From a virus: a stretch of 22,562 nt of DNA. Below, piece by piece: positions 4,165 through 21,394 of this stretch. The stretch lies in IMG/VR virus record IMGVR_UViG_3300012920_008869, positions 1 to 22,562 of that record; one strand, written 5' to 3'. Positions within the stretch are counted from its first letter, which is position 1; each line of letters begins with the position of its first letter. A model generated the notes under the pieces. It searched no databases. It was not told where the DNA came from and worked only from the letters and a program-made list of their open reading frames with translations. A program made the translations under genes and the position numbers.

Positions 4165-5364
4165 CTATACTCCTTCTATTACTTGTTCAAGTGTTTGTAG
4201 TACTTGTTCACTGGTATCTTTTAATGGATACTCAGTGAGTATTGCTTTTTTAATTGTGTTTCTAGTAAACTCTAAATCAAATCGTTCACCAGAGTCTGGA
4301 TTCATTCCTGTATTGACCAGGAATACATTGCTTTCATGTTGTTCAATATTCTTCATCAATAGATCACTATACTCACTTACTGCACGTGGCATAAATGGTG
4401 ATCCATAACAAGGACTTAATGTGCGTTTTATTTCTGTGACACCTGCTTCAGTACCAGGCATTGTACTGGTATAACCAGTTTCAAAAAATCTACGTACTGT
4501 ATCTCCACTAATCCTACTAATAGCAGGAAAAACACCTTCTGCATCCATAGTTAGAAAAAATATATTTTGTGCATGATCAAAGTTACCACGTTTGTGATAT
4601 GCGTTTGAAACACAACTAATTGGATAACTCAGTCTAGCATTTGCTTCACCTGGATTTTCTTCTACAAGTGTTTGTCTATCCTTAGCCCGTTCTACTGCTT
4701 GAAATATTGTTGGGTGTGTAATTGCAGACAACCCATCACTTTTAGCATAACAACCTGTTTCAATCATACGTATACCCATGTTGGTCCATGCTACTTCATC
4801 ATCACTAATCAACTTGTATTCAGGATCACTACTCAGTGTTGTTTTACCAGTGCCACTCAATCCAAACATAAGATTGGTTGTGCCTCTGTATGTAAATGCT
4901 CCGCAGTGCATGGGCAGTATATCAAACTTGGGCAGTTCAAAACTTACAATACCAAACACACCTTTTTTGATTTCACCTAAGAAAGTAGTGCCAGCTATAA
5001 GCATTATTTTTCTATCCAAATGTATATAGATTAACGGATCCATGTCAATGCTGGTGTTGTGATATATAGTCCAATCACCTACTTGGTCTTCAGCAGTGAC
5101 TTTGAACATGTTCCAAACAAACTGTTTGTGTCGTTGATCATTGGTGTGTAATGTAAAATTGGTTCCTACTGTTTCAAAGTTCATAGGTTCCAAATAGTTT
5201 GGTTGAATAAGTAATCTATCGTAAAAGTCGTTAAAGTCTGCTTCAACTCCTATCTTGTTAAACTTAGGTCTACTTAAATCTAGTTGTTTAGTTTGTTCAC
5301 CAAAAAAGTATTTGTTCTCAGGTGACCTACCTGTTGGATGTGTAGTGATGCTTATATTGGGCAT
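4165..5364 (-). CDS. pckA: Phosphoenolpyruvate carboxykinase (ATP type), compact form
   Basis: Converts oxaloacetate and ATP to phosphoenolpyruvate, CO2 and ADP. The 399 residues keep the ATP-PEPCK core: TGRSP (11-15, oxaloacetate-binding Arg13), GEIKKG (130-135, metal-ligand Lys), LPMHC (150-154, metal-ligand His153), the P-loop GLSGTGKTT (168-176), the kinase-2 SDDE (187-190), ETGCYAK (202-208), ARLSYPI (243-249, catalytic Arg244) and GTEAGVTE (304-311). Cellular ATP-PEPCKs are about 520-540 residues; this one lacks N-terminal sequence and about 60 C-terminal residues but no catalytic residue I can identify. Its ATG overlaps the upstream stop by one base (TAATG). With the GAPDH in the same operon it points to reprogramming of the PEP/triose node (inference). 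Family call is firm. Confidence 0.95.
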   Translation of the reverse strand: MPNISITTHPTGRSPENKYFFGEQTKQLDLSRPKFNKIGVEADFNDFYDRLLIQPNYLEPMNFETVGTNFTLHTNDQRHKQFVWNMFKVTAEDQVGDWTIYHNTSIDMDPLIYIHLDRKIMLIAGTTFLGEIKKGVFGIVSFELPKFDILPMHCGAFTYRGTTNLMFGLSGTGKTTLSSDPEYKLISDDEVAWTNMGIRMIETGCYAKSDGLSAITHPTIFQAVERAKDRQTLVEENPGEANARLSYPISCVSNAYHKRGNFDHAQNIFFLTMDAEGVFPAISRISGDTVRRFFETGYTSTMPGTEAGVTEIKRTLSPCYGSPFMPRAVSEYSDLLMKNIEQHESNVFLVNTGMNPDSGERFDLEFTRNTIKKAILTEYPLKDTSEQVLQTLEQVIEGV

Positions 5365-5828
5365 TATTCCTCGTCTACTTTGAGTTCTACTGTTTCAATG
5401 CTTCCATCATCGTATTCGATTTCCACATATTTGGTTCCGTCTTTTCTCGTTCTAGTAATTTTGCTGATTGCTTCAGGCTCTTGAGTAAATTGTTCTTCTA
5501 AGTTTGGTATTTCAGGTTCTTGTGGCGGTGGAGTTGATGCTGGTTTATCAGTTTGTTTTTCAGCAGTTTGTTTTTTAGGAGCGTCTTTTGGCTTTTCTTC
5601 AATTATTGGTTTTGTATCACTAATTGGTTGTTGTTGTGGAGGAACTGTATTATTATGATGTGCTACTGCAATGTCTTCTGCACTTACTTTTACACTACCA
5701 TCAGAATTCAATCTATCTCCTCTAGCATTCATTGCCACATTACTTACTGCTCTAGTTTTTTCGTGTTTGCTTGCCATTGCTGACATATCAATCATTACGC
5801 CTCTGGCTGTTCTTACACCTCTACTCAT
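5364..5828 (-). CDS. Conserved phage protein with disordered Pro/Lys/Glu-rich middle
   Basis: 154 residues: an Arg/Met-rich N-terminus (RGVRTARG, then RAVSNVAMNARGDRLN at 26-41), a low-complexity Pro/Gln/Lys/Glu stretch (about 60-115) and a short C-terminal beta segment ending in acidic residues. The N-terminal block resembles, from memory, small conserved proteins of T4-like marine phages; the role is unknown, possibly structural or assembly-related. It overlaps its neighbours by 4 bases upstream and 1 base downstream. Confidence 0.65.
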   Translation of the reverse strand: MSRGVRTARGVMIDMSAMASKHEKTRAVSNVAMNARGDRLNSDGSVKVSAEDIAVAHHNNTVPPQQQPISDTKPIIEEKPKDAPKKQTAEKQTDKPASTPPPQEPEIPNLEEQFTQEPEAISKITRTRKDGTKYVEIEYDDGSIETVELKVDEE

Positions 5829-6331
5829 CTTAGGAATTCCTTATAGTCTAAATTATATTTAACACTGTCAATTCTATGTATGCCAATTAGATACAATATA
5901 TAGCTGGAAACACTTGACCCTCTGCCAACTCCCCACAAAATATTGTGCCTTTTTAGTTCTTTTACCATATATACTAGAAATTTTAACATTGGTATCATTC
6001 CACGCTTTTTAAATTCATCAAATTCAGCAATACATCTGTCAATGTTTTCTTTTGGACATAAGTTTAAAATATAATCTTTAACATCTAATTGTTTATATTC
6101 TTCTGGCATGTGCCAATTATCAACATCTTCGTATGTGTACTTATCACTTGAATCTGCTGGTGTTTCATAATCAATTTGATCATTGAATTTAAATAATGTA
6201 CAAAAATGATTGTAACTATCTATTTTTTCAGTGTCTTTGGTAATAATATATCTAGCACTTTTACCTTGTAGAAGTCCTTCAACAAGATCATTCTCATCTA
6301 CAATCATTTCGTTAAGTTCAGTCATTTTCAT
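5825..6331 (-). CDS. Stand-alone fragment of the DNA polymerase III alpha (DnaE) family
   Basis: 168 residues. The C-terminal third matches the DnaE segment joining the PHP domain to the palm: FLVYMVKELKRHNI, then GVGRGSS (134-140), then YNLDYKEFLR, compared with GPGRGSGAGS...F(E)RFLN in cellular DnaE. It ends exactly where DnaE would continue into the PDxDxD catalytic aspartates, so it cannot be a polymerase alone. The GS motif normally contacts the incoming nucleotide triphosphate. Such truncated DnaE-like proteins are known in T4-like marine phages, role unknown. The gene overlaps both neighbours. Confidence 0.72.
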   Translation of the reverse strand: MKMTELNEMIVDENDLVEGLLQGKSARYIITKDTEKIDSYNHFCTLFKFNDQIDYETPADSSDKYTYEDVDNWHMPEEYKQLDVKDYILNLCPKENIDRCIAEFDEFKKRGMIPMLKFLVYMVKELKRHNILWGVGRGSSVSSYILYLIGIHRIDSVKYNLDYKEFLR

Positions 6332-6518
6332 TTTTCTTTAATCTAAAAATTGTATCACAATATCCACATACTGCTTCACCATCTTCTGGTATAGTGTAAT
6401 AGACTTTTGGATGATCCATGTGTTCTCCCATACACCAAACTCTGTTTGTATCACTGTAAACTATCCGTTCTTCAAAACCCTTAGGACGTTCTCCGTGTTG
6501 ACTATCTATTATTCCCAT
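6318..6518 (-). CDS. zf-CHCC zinc-finger protein
   Basis: 66 residues with the CHCC pattern Cys29, His36 (within DHPKVYY), Cys51 and Cys54 (AVCGYC), as in zf-CHCC proteins related to the NDUFS6 accessory subunit of complex I and common as tiny proteins in alphaproteobacteria. It binds zinc; its function in a phage is unknown and it may be host-acquired. It overlaps the DnaE-like gene by 14 bases. Confidence 0.8.
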   Translation of the reverse strand: MGIIDSQHGERPKGFEERIVYSDTNRVWCMGEHMDHPKVYYTIPEDGEAVCGYCDTIFRLKKNEND

Positions 6519-7868: not shown

Positions 7869-7940
7869 TTACGCCTGTACCGCTAAAAGCAGTACAGTAG
7901 CAAATAAAGTTACAATAAATGTTGCTATGATAGGATTCAT
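7869..7940 (-). CDS. Possible 23-residue membrane peptide
   Basis: Its ATG overlaps the stop of the Bax-inhibitor gene in ATGA form (7937-7940). It encodes a short N-terminus followed by a hydrophobic stretch that would just span a membrane, ending in VQA and TAA. The overlap and the uninterrupted hydrophobicity favour a real peptide, but at this length chance is possible. Confidence 0.45.
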   Translation of the reverse strand: MNPIIATFIVTLFATVLLLAVQA

Positions 7941-8620
7941 TCTCTGTTACCCAATAGCATTAACAACATTTGAAATAGGTTAATAAAATTAAGATACAAG
8001 CTGATTGCAAACTTGATACCATATCTTTCATCTCTGGTTTGTATAAAAATTAGTTTTGCAGTTTGTGTATCATAGGCAGTCAATCCTGTGAAAATTAGTA
8101 CACCAATAATACTAATTGCAAACATCAATGCACTGCTAGCCATAAAAATGTTTACAATGCTAGCAATAATAATACCAATCAAACCAATAAACAAGAAACT
8201 TCCCCATGAGGTCAAATCTCTATTGGTTGTGTATCCATACAAACTAGCACCAGCAAATGTAGCACTGGTTATAAAAAATACTTGCGTTATACTCATTGCT
8301 GTGTACACTGCAAAAATGGTACTCAAACTAAGTCCCATTAGTGTGACAAATGCATAATAAAACAACGTAAGTTTTTTAAGGTCCCAGTTCTGTCCTGCAA
8401 AACTGTACCAAAAAATCATTCCTAGTGGAGCAAACATTGCAACATACATTAGTCCGCCCATTGCATATAGTAGTCCACTACTGTATGTTAACCATGCAAC
8501 TGCACCACTGACAGCTAATCCGCTGGCAGTATGATTGTACATTGTTAACATTAATTGTCTTAGGCCTTCATCAATTTCTCTATTGCTAGTGCCTAAAACT
8601 GCTCTCTCAAGTTGATTCAT
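7937..8620 (-). CDS. Bax inhibitor-1 / TMBIM family membrane protein
   Basis: 227 residues with seven transmembrane segments, the size of bacterial YbhL/YccA proteins. Family signs include NREIDEGLRQLMLTMYNHTA at the N-terminus and LTAYDTQTAK between the last two helices, where the family has a conserved YDTQ. Bacterial relatives act as inner-membrane proteins with proposed calcium leak activity or FtsH-modulating roles; the role during infection is unknown. It has a strong AAGGAGAAGAG ribosome site. It is flanked by small membrane genes on both sides, overlapping the 42-residue gene by 14 bases. Confidence 0.9.
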   Translation of the reverse strand: MNQLERAVLGTSNREIDEGLRQLMLTMYNHTASGLAVSGAVAWLTYSSGLLYAMGGLMYVAMFAPLGMIFWYSFAGQNWDLKKLTLFYYAFVTLMGLSLSTIFAVYTAMSITQVFFITSATFAGASLYGYTTNRDLTSWGSFLFIGLIGIIIASIVNIFMASSALMFAISIIGVLIFTGLTAYDTQTAKLIFIQTRDERYGIKFAISLYLNFINLFQMLLMLLGNRE

Positions 8621-9623: not shown

Positions 9624-9964
9624 ACATCTTCTCTGGTGTTGTCTTGATATACTTGTCTAAAGAAGTTTTCACTCCAAAATGCTTTGTCATCTATCCAAAC
9701 ATCATAATGTTCTTTTTTACCAACACTTAGTTCTGTATATTTGGCTCCCCAACTTTCCAATTGGTTTTTGGTTAGTTCATAGTAATCAACACCACTTACT
9801 GCACCTCTGGCTGTCATGTATTTAATTTCATGTCCGTCATCATAAAGTTTGTTTACAATAGCAATACGATCCATCATAGGTTCATGTATTGCATAATCTT
9901 TTTTACCATTTGGTAGAAGAACTTCTTTACAAATGGTTCCATCTATATCTATAACATATCTCAT
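9620..9964 (-). CDS. Small HAD-superfamily phosphatase
   Basis: 114 residues with the four HAD motifs in order: DIDGTIC (Asp6 nucleophile, Asp8 acid/base), YMTARG (motif II Thr), a Lys in VGKKEHYD (motif III) and WIDDKA (motif IV acidic pair). There is no large cap domain, as in small sugar- or nucleotide-phosphate phosphatases and polynucleotide 3'-phosphatases. The substrate is unknown. It overlaps the PRPP synthetase gene by 4 bases (9961-9964), so a nucleotide-linked role is plausible. Confidence 0.82.
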   Translation of the reverse strand: MRYVIDIDGTICKEVLLPNGKKDYAIHEPMMDRIAIVNKLYDDGHEIKYMTARGAVSGVDYYELTKNQLESWGAKYTELSVGKKEHYDVWIDDKAFWSENFFRQVYQDNTREDV

Positions 9965-10890
9965 TTAAATAAACTACTTACACTTTCTTCATTTGTGATT
10001 CTTCGCATAGCTTCTCCGAAAAGCTCTGCAACTGTTACTTGTCTTATTTTTTTACTGTCACCCTCGATAGGAATACTGTCACTTACAACTAATTCATCTA
10101 ACACACTTTTATCAATTTTTTTGTGGGCACCATTGCTCAATACGCCGTGTGTAATATATGCCCTAACACTTAATGCACCTGCTTTCATTATTGCTTCGGC
10201 GGCATTACAAAGTGTACCTCCGCTGTCTACAATATCATCTACTAGTATTGCATGTTTGTCTTTAACTTCACCAATCAAGTTCATTACTTCTGCTACTCCT
10301 GCTTTCGGTCGACGTTTGTCAACAATAGCAACATCACCAAAAAACATTTCTGCAAACTTTCTTGCACGAACAACTCCACCTGCATCGGGCGATACAAACA
10401 CTGTGCCTTCTGTACAATTGACTGTACGTTTAATATCTTTGGCAAAAACCACCCTGCTGGTAAGATCATCCACAGGTATATCAAAAAATCCTTGTATCTG
10501 ACCAGCATGAAGATCCATTGTTAGTATTCTATCTGCACCTGCCTGTGTCAACAAATCTGCTACTAGCTTTGCAGTAATAGGGGTACGACTTGCACTTTTT
10601 CTATCCTGTCTTGCATATCCATAGTATGGCATTACTGCTGATATTCTTTTTGCACTGCTACGTTTAGCAGTGTCAATCATAATAAGCATTTCCATTAAAC
10701 TTTCGTTTACTGGCATGCAAGTGCTATTCACTAAAAAAACATCCTTGCCTCGGATGTTTTCTTTAATTTCTACTAGTATTTCACCGTCACTGAATCGTGT
10801 AACATCTGTGGGTACCAATTCTGTAAAACAGTGTTCGGCAACCTTTTGAGCAAATACCGGATTGCTTCCTCCACTAATGATTTTCATCAT
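9961..10890 (-). CDS. prs: Ribose-phosphate pyrophosphokinase (PRPP synthetase)
   Basis: Makes PRPP from ribose-5-phosphate and ATP for purine, pyrimidine and NAD synthesis. At 309 residues it is full length for the bacterial class I enzyme (~310-315). It keeps FSDGE, YYGYARQDRK (ATP loop), TMDLHAGQIQGFF (Mg site), the flexible KRRP loop and the PRPP-binding VDDIVDSGGT. Its ribosome site AGAGG precedes MMK; Met1 or Met2 could be used. Phage PRPP synthetases are rare but known. The OMP decarboxylase and DHODH-like genes give it a coherent pyrimidine context. Confidence 0.96.
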   Translation of the reverse strand: MMKIISGGSNPVFAQKVAEHCFTELVPTDVTRFSDGEILVEIKENIRGKDVFLVNSTCMPVNESLMEMLIMIDTAKRSSAKRISAVMPYYGYARQDRKSASRTPITAKLVADLLTQAGADRILTMDLHAGQIQGFFDIPVDDLTSRVVFAKDIKRTVNCTEGTVFVSPDAGGVVRARKFAEMFFGDVAIVDKRRPKAGVAEVMNLIGEVKDKHAILVDDIVDSGGTLCNAAEAIMKAGALSVRAYITHGVLSNGAHKKIDKSVLDELVVSDSIPIEGDSKKIRQVTVAELFGEAMRRITNEESVSSLFK

Positions 10891-11701: not shown

Positions 11702-12349
11702 TCATAGGCTCTCTTTAATTTCCATTACAGTTTTTACTGGATCTACACTTTCAGTAATAGTTCTTCCTATCACTAGGTAGTCAGCACCTAGTTCAACTGC
11801 TTGTTTAGGTGTAACTGTTCTTACTTGTCCTTTATTAGCACCAATACCCGGACATACTCTAAGCATTTGAGGAGCCAATGGTCTTACTGTTTCTATGTCT
11901 TTTGCACTGCATACAAGTCCAGCAAATCCATATGGTCTTATCCTATCTATATTCTCTCGCCACATTACTTTGTTACCACCCGGTAACCATTGCATTATTT
12001 CTAGTAAGTCACTGCCCCTCCAACTTGTAAGATAAGTCACCCCTAGCATTTTTACTTTGTCTTTGTACTCTTGTAATTCTTCAAACACCGCACGATTATT
12101 GAGTGTACATACCGTAGTCATTGTTGCACCTTTGTCAACAATACGTTGCATCACTTGCTTTACAGTATTTGGAGTGTCCCAAAGTTTACAGTCAATGAAT
12201 AGTTCATCAGCTATTGTTTTTAACAAACTTGTATGCTCCCACATTAGATGATTTACTTTGAATCCATCTACTTGATTCTTTAACTTTGTTGCAATCTCTA
12301 TGTTTGCTTCTGGGCTTTCATTATCTAATGCTACAATTATTTTTGTCAT
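11702..12349 (-). CDS. pyrF: Orotidine 5'-phosphate decarboxylase
   Basis: Decarboxylates OMP to UMP, the last step of de novo UMP synthesis. Start chosen at ATG 12349, where GAGGAA precedes it and the upstream ferredoxin stop is one base away; the frame is open further up but only inside the ferredoxin gene. The 215 residues hold VALDN (Asp9), GFKVN (Lys31) and the catalytic DCKLWDTPN (Asp53, Lys55, Asp58), the charge network that defines the enzyme, plus CPGIGANKGQ and DYLVIGRTI at the phosphate site. Length is near the usual ~230. No orotate phosphoribosyltransferase is seen in the window. Confidence 0.93.
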   Translation of the reverse strand: MTKIIVALDNESPEANIEIATKLKNQVDGFKVNHLMWEHTSLLKTIADELFIDCKLWDTPNTVKQVMQRIVDKGATMTTVCTLNNRAVFEELQEYKDKVKMLGVTYLTSWRGSDLLEIMQWLPGGNKVMWRENIDRIRPYGFAGLVCSAKDIETVRPLAPQMLRVCPGIGANKGQVRTVTPKQAVELGADYLVIGRTITESVDPVKTVMEIKESL

Positions 12350-12350
12350 T

Positions 12351-12704
12351 TTATTCCTCTGGTCCTGGGTTTTCACTAAATTTATCTTTTTTATCTTCAC
12401 TATATCCCATATCCGGATTGACATCATCTGCTCCAGGCATAGGATCAAGTTTTTGTGTAATATTGGGCCAGATTTTACTATACTTGGTGTTAATATCTAA
12501 CCAGTATTGTAGCTCATCATTCATTTCAGTATCAGGTACAATAGCGCCTGCAGGACATTCAGGCTCACATACACCACAGTCAATACATTCATCAGGATGG
12601 ATTACAATAGTATTTTCACCTATATAAAAACAGTCTACAGGACAAACCTCTACACAATCTGTATATCGACAATTGATACACTTCTGATTGACTATATATG
12701 TCAT
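12351..12704 (-). CDS. fdxA: 7Fe-8S ferredoxin (FdxA type)
   Basis: Small electron carrier. Cysteines fall as in Azotobacter ferredoxin I: Cys9, Cys17 and Cys50 for the [3Fe-4S] cluster, Cys21, Cys40, Cys43 and Cys46 for the [4Fe-4S] cluster, and the two non-ligand cysteines 12 and 25. The blocks CPVDCFYIG and [12 protein letters not shown] are family hallmarks. The 117 residues end in an acidic, Pro-rich tail. The alphaproteobacterial FdxA style suggests capture from a host. Its stop lies one base before the OMP decarboxylase start. Confidence 0.95.
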
Positions 12705-19988: not shown

Positions 19989-20375
19989 TTAGAACTTAAA
20001 AGATGCTCCTACTGTAATATCACCTCTTTCAGCTTCATCGATATCCCAATGTGTTTTACCATAAAGTTCGATGTTTTCACCAAGTCCACTGTAGTTAAGT
20101 TCTAAGTTTATATTTGGTCTGCTACCGTCGTCAAGTATGTCAAATGCTACAAGACTGTCTGTTGCGGTACTATCATACATAGGAATCTTAGTTCCTATGT
20201 CAACTGCCCAATCAGCTACAATTCCGATGGTCATTTCTGGCTCATATACAATTGATGTCTTTTCTGCATCAACCATGTACTCAGCAGTGATTTCGTTTTC
20301 CCAACTCCAATCCATTGCTGTGGCTGATGTTGTCATTGCACCAATAAGTGCGGTAGTGGCTATTAAATTTTTCAT
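19989..20375 (-). CDS. Small outer-membrane beta-barrel-like protein
   Basis: 128 residues with a clear Sec signal peptide (cleavage after ATA at about residue 20) and a mature part of alternating polar/hydrophobic strands (INLELNYSGL, ENIELYGKTHWDI) ending in GASFKF, a C-terminal Phe typical of outer-membrane barrel proteins. At ~107 mature residues it may be a minimal or oligomeric barrel. It has an AAGGAGAAC ribosome site, and lies just after the terminator that follows the tmRNA gene, so it depends on readthrough or an unseen promoter. Possible role in altering host surface (inference). Confidence 0.72.
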   Translation of the reverse strand: MKNLIATTALIGAMTTSATAMDWSWENEITAEYMVDAEKTSIVYEPEMTIGIVADWAVDIGTKIPMYDSTATDSLVAFDILDDGSRPNINLELNYSGLGENIELYGKTHWDIDEAERGDITVGASFKF

Positions 20376-20398: not shown

Positions 20399-20432
20399 AA
20401 AAAAAAATGACAAAACCTGATTGATTCTGTCA
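20399..20432 (-). terminator. Rho-independent terminator after the tmRNA gene
   Basis: Minus strand: stem TGACAGAA/TTTTGTCA (20408-20432, one G-U pair) followed by nine T (20399-20407). It would end the tmRNA transcript. Confidence 0.75.
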
Positions 20433-20548
20433 AGTATATTTACCTAATAAATTTTGTTTTTTAGGTTAGGTGTTATGTCATTATTACTTTAGTGGTTTTT
20501 GTGCAACTATTCTGTTGCCAGGTCAGTTGCCAACCCCGGAAGACTTAA

Positions 20549-20590
20549 TTAAGCCGCCATTGCCATTTCTGGCGCATAATTGTCATTTGC
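20549..20590 (-). other. tmRNA tag reading frame: ANDNYAPEMAMAA
   Basis: Begins with the GCA resume codon (20588-20590) and ends in TAA (20549-20551), followed by a second in-frame TAA after ATT-free read-on of TTAAT. The ANDN start and small hydrophobic AMAA end are those of an alphaproteobacterial-style SsrA tag recognised by ClpXP-type proteases. The bases before the GCA (CTATAATT) fit the usual U/A-rich approach to the resume site. Confidence 0.9.
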
Positions 20591-20680
20591 AATTATAGTT
20601 GTGTTCGCGTTAACCGAGCTTACATCCGGACAACTCCACTTGCCTAATAACTACCTGTCGATCCTAGTTCGGCCCCATCA

Positions 20681-20752
20681 TAATAACACGGAAACAACAA
20701 TTTCAATAAGCCATATAGTTAATAATAATTCCAACTTAAATCCATGTTATTA
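20681..20752 (-). repeat. Inverted repeat closing the tmRNA intervening segment
   Basis: TAATAACATGG, starting directly after the CCA end (20742-20752), pairs with CCGTGTTATTA (20681-20691) over 11 bp with one G-U pair. It extends the acceptor stem of the precursor and must be cut out to release the two mature pieces. Confidence 0.8.
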
Positions 20753-20820
20753 TGGTGGAGCCGCCGGGTACCGCCCCCGGGTCCAGTATAGTGTTGAACT
20801 TGCTTCAACGTTGCATTTTA

Positions 20821-20848
20821 TTTATACAGTATTTTTTGATATTGTCAA
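20821..20848 (-). promoter_or_regulatory. Sigma70-like promoter of the tmRNA gene
   Basis: Minus strand: -35 TTGACA (20843-20848), 16-base spacer, -10 TATAAA (20821-20826). It begins directly after the TAG stop of the AlgH/YqgE-like gene, and predicts a start near 20814. A GTTGAA/TTCAAC hairpin follows at the start of the acceptor piece. Confidence 0.8.
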
Positions 20849-21394
20849 CTAAAAATTTAAATAATCTTTAACTCTAGCATTTGCACTCATTTCTATTCCA
20901 CGTTCCCACTGATTATTAGGAGCTATGTTCCACATTAATGCTTGAGTAAATGGGCAATTGGTCCATAAACTTTTACCCATTGTTCTACTACCTAGAAGTT
21001 CACTTTCTAATTGTCCAGCACCCCAACTGCAATGTCCTACTACTATTCTCCAATACTGAGGAAAATTATTATTATTAAACATATCAATTAGTTGTTTATC
21101 TCTGGTAACACAAAAATTATCATTTAATTCTGTACTTAGTTGAATACTAAGGTCATTGCTGTGCATGATAAAAACTTGATTTATATCTACCGGACCTCCG
21201 TAATATATAGGAGCATTAATTACTAGGTTCATACTTTTTCTAAGTTTAAGTCCAACTCTTTGATCTAGTTCCTTGTTTAATATCCATCCGTGAGCCCCGT
21301 CACCATCATGCTGATCTACATATACAATACTTTTTTTAAAATTACTGTCTCCTAGTGTAGGTAAACTAACCAGTATTTGTTTTTCCATATTCAT
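20849..21394 (-). CDS. AlgH/YqgE (DUF179) family protein
   Basis: 181 residues, the usual size for UPF0301. Family blocks in order: ILVSLPTLGDSNFKKSIVY at the start, HGWILNKELD, PIYYGGPVDINQVFIMH, GHCSWGAGQLESEL near the middle of the C-terminal half. The biochemical role is unknown; AlgH is linked to alginate regulation in Pseudomonas. It overlaps the upstream gene by ATGA (21391-21394) and ends at the tmRNA promoter. Confidence 0.88.
   Translation of the reverse strand: MNMEKQILVSLPTLGDSNFKKSIVYVDQHDGDGAHGWILNKELDQRVGLKLRKSMNLVINAPIYYGGPVDINQVFIMHSNDLSIQLSTELNDNFCVTRDKQLIDMFNNNNFPQYWRIVVGHCSWGAGQLESELLGSRTMGKSLWTNCPFTQALMWNIAPNNQWERGIEMSANARVKDYLNF

Follow-up and report, generated by a model that had tools for sequence, protein, structure and literature searches.

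A circularly permuted two-piece tmRNA gene on a phage contig, with a virus-specific tag and a putative composite early/late promoter

Whether a phage carries a complete tmRNA gene of its own, and what such an RNA would do during infection, is the question raised by the stretch of viral DNA analysed here, an IMG/VR record of 22,562 bases represented by a single metagenomic contig (hereafter the window). A preliminary description, which left the strand unstated, had proposed a complete permuted two-piece tmRNA, and this is borne out by both ARAGORN, which identifies a permuted tmRNA with the tag ANDNYAPEMAMAA on the minus strand at 20458-20849, and Infernal searches with Rfam models, which return full-length matches to alpha_tmRNA (RF01849; 20864-20500, 135.7 bits against a gathering cut-off of 50, E = 2.3e-37) and tmRNA_permuted (RF04321; 20814-20549, 117.9 bits against a gathering cut-off of 47). 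Both Rfam scores are far higher than a chance match would give. The window tmRNA is confirmed as complete, circularly permuted, and of the alphaproteobacterial type.

In the order of transcription, the gene consists of a promoter, an acceptor piece, an intervening segment, a coding piece with the tag frame, and a terminator (Table 1), with the CCA end, the 76-base segment, and the intrinsic terminator all present as first described. The 3' end of the coding piece is approximate, with the Rfam model ending at 20500 and ARAGORN at 20458, and the length of the intervening segment ranges from 29 to 121 nt across syntenic relatives. The perfect 7-bp acceptor stem reported earlier is likewise present (GGGGCCG/CGGCTCC, 7/7 paired), and its G3-U70 pair, together with A73 and CCA, completes the alanine identity set. 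The tag frame ends in a TAA stop preceded by a degron-like C-terminus. An altered degron was considered and rejected, as AMAA and AIAA ends are known from host tags too, and no special fate is therefore implied for the phage tag.

Table 1. Features of the tmRNA locus and its flanking genes, in the direction of transcription
Feature	Positions	Strand	Basis
AlgH/YqgE-like protein gene (DUF179), directly upstream; neighbour kept in relatives	20849..21394	-	Pfam PF02622, gene order
-35 element TTGACA, 16 nt before the -10; kept in four syntenic relatives	20843..20848	-	
-10 element TATAAATA, same as the T4 late-promoter consensus	20819..20826	-	consensus from PMC1524935
Acceptor piece (3' half of the tRNA-like domain: T arm, acceptor-stem 3' strand, A73, CCA)	20753..20814	-	ARAGORN, RF04321
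Encoded CCA of the acceptor piece	20755-20753	-	ARAGORN, RF04321
Intervening segment (76 nt), predicted to be excised during processing	20677..20752	-	ARAGORN piece limits
Coding piece (acceptor-stem 5' strand and D-like arm, 20676-20647; tag frame; structured region downstream)	20500..20676	-	Rfam, ARAGORN
Tag frame ANDNYAPEMAMAA and TAA stop	20549..20590	-	ARAGORN
Intrinsic terminator (10-bp stem, 5-nt loop, T run)	20408..20432	-	-10.6 kcal/mol, z -4.3
Directly downstream gene without family match; L128 and L129 have a homologue in this position	19989..20375	-	gene order

The paired regions of the RNA are conserved well beyond the window. Over 88 distinct viral tRNA-like domains, 99.6% of acceptor-stem and T-stem pairs are standard, compared with 85.5% after shuffling of the 3' letters (highest of 500 shuffles, 87.3%), and pairs 5 and 6 of the acceptor stem each occur as four or five pair types. 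G3-U70 is present in 87 of these sequences and A73 in all 88. The intact parts and this covariation suggest that the window tmRNA is functional.

As the window is one metagenomic contig of 22.6 kb, a host segment joined to viral DNA during assembly, or host contamination, would be conceivable. Scanning with the ATP-dependent DNA ligase of the window, however, identified four viral contigs (L128, L163, L129, and L147; ligases 68–96% identical) with the tmRNA at the same place and in a shared order, running from the AlgH/YqgE-like gene through the tmRNA to the genes leading to the ligase, and close relatives of the tmRNA are present on many further viral contigs. An assembly join was therefore rejected and is extremely unlikely, with the conserved gene order marking the window tmRNA as a phage gene, as first described. 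The label T4-like, also given earlier, finds no direct support in the window, a fragment in which no T4 Gp23 capsid gene was found, but is reasonable given that Gp23 genes are carried by more distant contigs related through the ligase (G035, G017, G030, G033, and G040). Ligase relatives at 70–73% identity differ from the window in gene order, and are uninformative on loss of the tmRNA. A megablast search of the whole window against isolate phages gave no match.

Whilst the gene had been called unusual, this was overstated. A 2022 study described the two-piece tmRNA of phage Melnitz and counted 53 two-piece structures across phage genomes, of which 50 came from marine or aquatic samples (PMC9004378), and a single acceptor-pattern scan of IMG/VR returned at least 120 contigs, so that the window gene belongs to a known kind. 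A tmRNA database includes 79 entries from bacteriophages, with all forms counted (PMC11915505). ARAGORN overlooks many permuted viral tmRNAs, such as those of L270, L206, and L218, with intervening segments of 264–332 nt, and phage counts based on it are consequently too low. The possibility that such cases represent tmRNA pieces split far apart was rejected, as the apparent misses are mostly ordinary permuted genes (intervening segments up to ~330 nt) or contig ends.

The preliminary description was also correct in assigning the gene its own promoter, with TTGACA-16-TATAAA lying at 20848-20821, where 0.2 such matches would be expected by chance per whole window. The late-promoter element, the virus-specific tag, and the viral clade described below go beyond that description. 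The -10 element matches the T4 late-promoter consensus, TATAAATA, at 8 of 8 positions, and occurs once in the window with both strands counted (3.6 expected). The T4 element is situated at -13 to -6 relative to the start (PMC1524935), a rule which predicts a start at ~20813, adjoining the first base of the RF04321 match. Aligned upstream regions of five syntenic phages have little in common except TTGACA and TATAAATA; likewise, in 63 distinct examples with a 17-nt spacer, both elements are near-invariant while the spacer drifts. A strict pattern (TTGACA-N15-19-TATAA) precedes 60 of 101 viral tmRNAs and none of 135 host tmRNAs, with a rate of 0.0002 in shuffled sequence. Among 73 viral tmRNA promoters identified with a relaxed pattern, the -10 is TATAAATA in 66 and the spacer is 17 nt in 67 (16 nt in the window). 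Counted as TTGA(C/T)(A/T), 16–18 nt, TATAA(A/C)TA, the composite promoter is found at 70 of 100 viral tmRNAs and is absent from ~30%.

At the 57 other TTGACA-N16-18-TATAA sites of these contigs, the -10 is TATAAT in 47 and TATAAATA in one (p = 3e-29). That lone site, an intact composite promoter, precedes an apparently decayed tmRNA acceptor piece in contig L266 (from ~1495), which is followed after ~600 bases by a complete tmRNA of a different type. In the Gp23 regions of related phages, TATAAATA without an exact TTGACA precedes genes at three of the four loci examined. Of the 116 usable sites with exact TTGACA-N17-TATAAATA in an IMG/VR sample, 31 precede a tmRNA-like acceptor piece. The notion that the composite promoter is exclusive to tmRNAs was rejected, as other sites precede Hsp20-like genes (L466, L484, L510, and L521) and gp32-like genes (L497, L518, and L537), of which Pfam confirms two Hsp20 and two gp32 (single-strand DNA-binding protein) genes. 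It is as if the composite promoter marked genes needed throughout infection. The joining of a sigma-70 -35 element to a T4 late box would allow early transcription by the host RNA polymerase and late transcription by the phage-modified polymerase; alternatively, TATAAATA could act solely as a weak sigma-70 -10.

The tag of the window gene is absent from the sampled hosts. A degenerate DNA pattern for ANDNYAPEMA matched 95 viral contigs, and only two contigs in 84,980 bacterial and archaeal genomes, both of which are phage although filed in bacterial MAGs: PALK01000009.1 (L206; 29,883 bases), assigned to a Rickettsiales bin, agrees with an IMG/VR record in length and over the part that was compared, and PBPT01000016.1 (L205), 335 kb long and assigned to Neomarinimicrobiota, has a gene for T4 Gp23. 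The PEMA and YAPE motifs are both missing from a sample of 136 permuted tmRNAs of alphaproteobacterial hosts. A tree of 198 tmRNAs (87 viral, 111 host), built with the tags left out from a viral set enriched by tag and acceptor patterns and from a sample of hosts, requires only 3–4 virus/host switches, compared with a shuffled mean of 65. On this tree, whose bootstrap has not yet settled, the window tmRNA sits in a supported all-viral set of 34. The window tmRNA therefore appears to be a member of a mostly viral clade, distinct in tag and promoter from bacterial genes. Some viral tags are nevertheless the same as sampled host tags (ANESYALAA), indicating that capture from hosts also happens.

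The two parts of the gene group the four syntenic relatives differently. The acceptor pieces of L128 and L163 are 98% identical and those of L129 and L147 93% (cross pairs 79–82%), whilst the tag segments pair L128 with L147 (98%) and L163 with L129 (96%; cross pairs 61–65%). All four acceptor/tag combinations thus exist, which points to recombination within the tmRNA gene among these phages.

The intact parts, the covarying acceptor stem, the conserved promoter and gene order, and the mostly viral clade together suggest that the window gene is probably a working phage two-piece tmRNA, most likely serving ribosome rescue and tagging with host SmpB both early and late in infection. A single transcript would start at ~20813, with host tRNA-processing enzymes removing the 76-nt segment to leave acceptor and coding pieces paired with each other. 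Host alanyl-tRNA synthetase would charge the RNA through G3-U70, and host SmpB and EF-Tu would deliver it to stalled ribosomes, freeing the ribosome and adding ANDNYAPEMAMAA, which is probably read as a degradation signal by host ClpXP-type proteases. Huge phages with both tmRNA and SmpB have been reported (PMC7162821). Here a phage-encoded SmpB was considered and rejected, with no PF01668 match in 22 virus records, most of them fragments and one of 306 kb; host SmpB would have to serve, making the RNA host-dependent.

The expected outcome would be that ribosomes are kept available during mRNA breakage and host transcription shut-off. T4 degrades mRNA through RegB and host RNases (PMC3014915), and the proposal that the tmRNA answers mRNA breakdown during infection is plausible. 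The phage nucleases invoked in its support would be an SNase homologue and a DexA/Rv2179c-like exonuclease encoded in the window, for which mRNA cleavage is conjectural. The timing of transcription, the processing, charging, and tagging steps, and any advantage for the phage are inferred from sequence; as hosts already encode tmRNA, such an advantage is hypothetical.

Three other accounts of the gene bear on this reading. Recent passive capture of a host ssrA, for example with an attachment site, leaving a gene now idle or decaying, would fit the viral tags equal to the sampled host tag ANESYALAA and the apparently decayed acceptor piece in L266. It is quite improbable for the window gene, however, given a tag absent from sampled hosts, placement within a supported all-viral set, parts that are all intact and covarying, gene order kept between diverged phages, a phage-like promoter, and no integrase among the window genes scanned. 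A decoy that ties up SmpB or stalled ribosomes and so blocks host trans-translation, as proposed for mycobacteriophage DS6A, has a precedent in a tmRNA consisting of the tRNA-like domain only, which is able to inhibit tmRNA, perhaps through SmpB titration (PMC4131195), but the window gene retains its coding piece, resume site, tag frame, and stop, and the tags of the viral group remain readable with degron-like ends, making a decoy very unlikely.

It has also been suggested, by the authors of the Melnitz study (PMC9004378), that the main gain is not ribosome rescue but the marking of host proteins for breakdown and the reuse of their amino acids, and the resemblance of the AMAA/ALAA tag ends to host degrons is in keeping with this. 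However, tmRNA acts at stalled ribosomes regardless of the protein being made, nothing found here confers selectivity, and the late-promoter element counts against the early-only use assumed by those authors, so that selective proteolysis seems improbable as the main function. Beyond ribosome rescue with host SmpB, a bolder proposal is a virus-run form of trans-translation, in which a tmRNA lineage long maintained by viruses, with a tag confined to them, tag modules that can be exchanged, and promoters read both early and late, yields infection-tagged products that are perhaps handled differently from those tagged by host tmRNA; this we regard as speculative and rather unlikely.

Several other genes of the window merit mention. 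Genes for GAPDH (1-576), dihydroorotate dehydrogenase (1600-2307), ATP-type PEP carboxykinase (4165-5364), ribose-phosphate pyrophosphokinase (9961-10890), and OMP decarboxylase (11702-12448) form an unusual set for a phage, and together would lead from gluconeogenesis to PRPP and UMP. For the PEP carboxykinase, PHROGs gave no match, and the few matches among phage records are mostly doubtful. The window further encodes a Bax inhibitor-1 family membrane protein (7937-8620) and a 168-residue protein similar to a portion of DNA polymerase III alpha (5825-6331).

Taken together, scattered odd phage tmRNAs become a testable pattern, a virus-specific rescue RNA common to many marine phages, with a promoter that predicts expression through the whole infection and a tag that, in proteomic or metatranscriptomic work on infected cells, may show which ribosomes are being rescued and from whose mRNAs. 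What appears to be new, within the open-access papers searched, is the restriction of the tag to viruses, the existence of a viral clade, the exchange of modules, and the use of the composite promoter at tmRNAs.

Among known systems, Methylophilales phage Melnitz EXVC044M (MZ577097.1) and related marine myophages resemble the window in carrying a permuted alphaproteobacterial-type tmRNA in a T4-type marine phage (PMC9004378), and the Melnitz gene shares the composite promoter, as TTGACA-N17-TATAAATA. Melnitz differs in its tag (ANDNYVPVDYALAA), in an intervening segment of 142 nt, and in having a glutamine riboswitch on the 3' side of the tmRNA, none of which the window has; at the nucleotide level, 46% of the query is covered at 73.6% identity. 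The Melnitz riboswitch is said to control the tmRNA (PMC9004378). It occupies 6400-6448, between the alpha_tmRNA match, which ends at 6392, and a late-transcription coactivator gene, a position 3' of the tmRNA from which it would be placed to control the following gene or genes rather than the tmRNA. Equivalent control of the window tmRNA was rejected, given this position and the lack of any Rfam riboswitch match in the window. In L147, a glutamine riboswitch (57.3 bits) lies at 9790-9838, ~160 bases before the DNA ligase gene.

The roseophages DSS3_MAL1 and vB_RpoS-V10, large phages of marine alphaproteobacteria whose DNA ligases are among the nearest isolate matches, also carry a permuted tmRNA, but with APMEMAIAA-type tags, no composite promoter, and a location near tRNA gene clusters. 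Alphaproteobacterial host ssrA (Caulobacter type, RF01849) shares with the window the permuted order, T arm, G3-U70, CCA, and ANDN...AA layout; in contrast, the window tag is not found in hosts, the viral genes have a phage-type promoter and fall mostly in a separate clade, and the median intervening segment is 64.5 nt in viral genes and 25.5 nt in host ssrA. The promoter has its closest parallel in the MotA-less T4-like phages RB49, S-PM2, and Syn9, in which a single gene is likewise preceded by both early and late elements (PMC2984593). As such overlapping promoters are already described for these phages, the promoter class is not new. No composite early/late promoter for a tmRNA was reported in the open-access papers searched, and its regular use by phage tmRNAs appears to be new, as the Melnitz study assigned an early promoter only.
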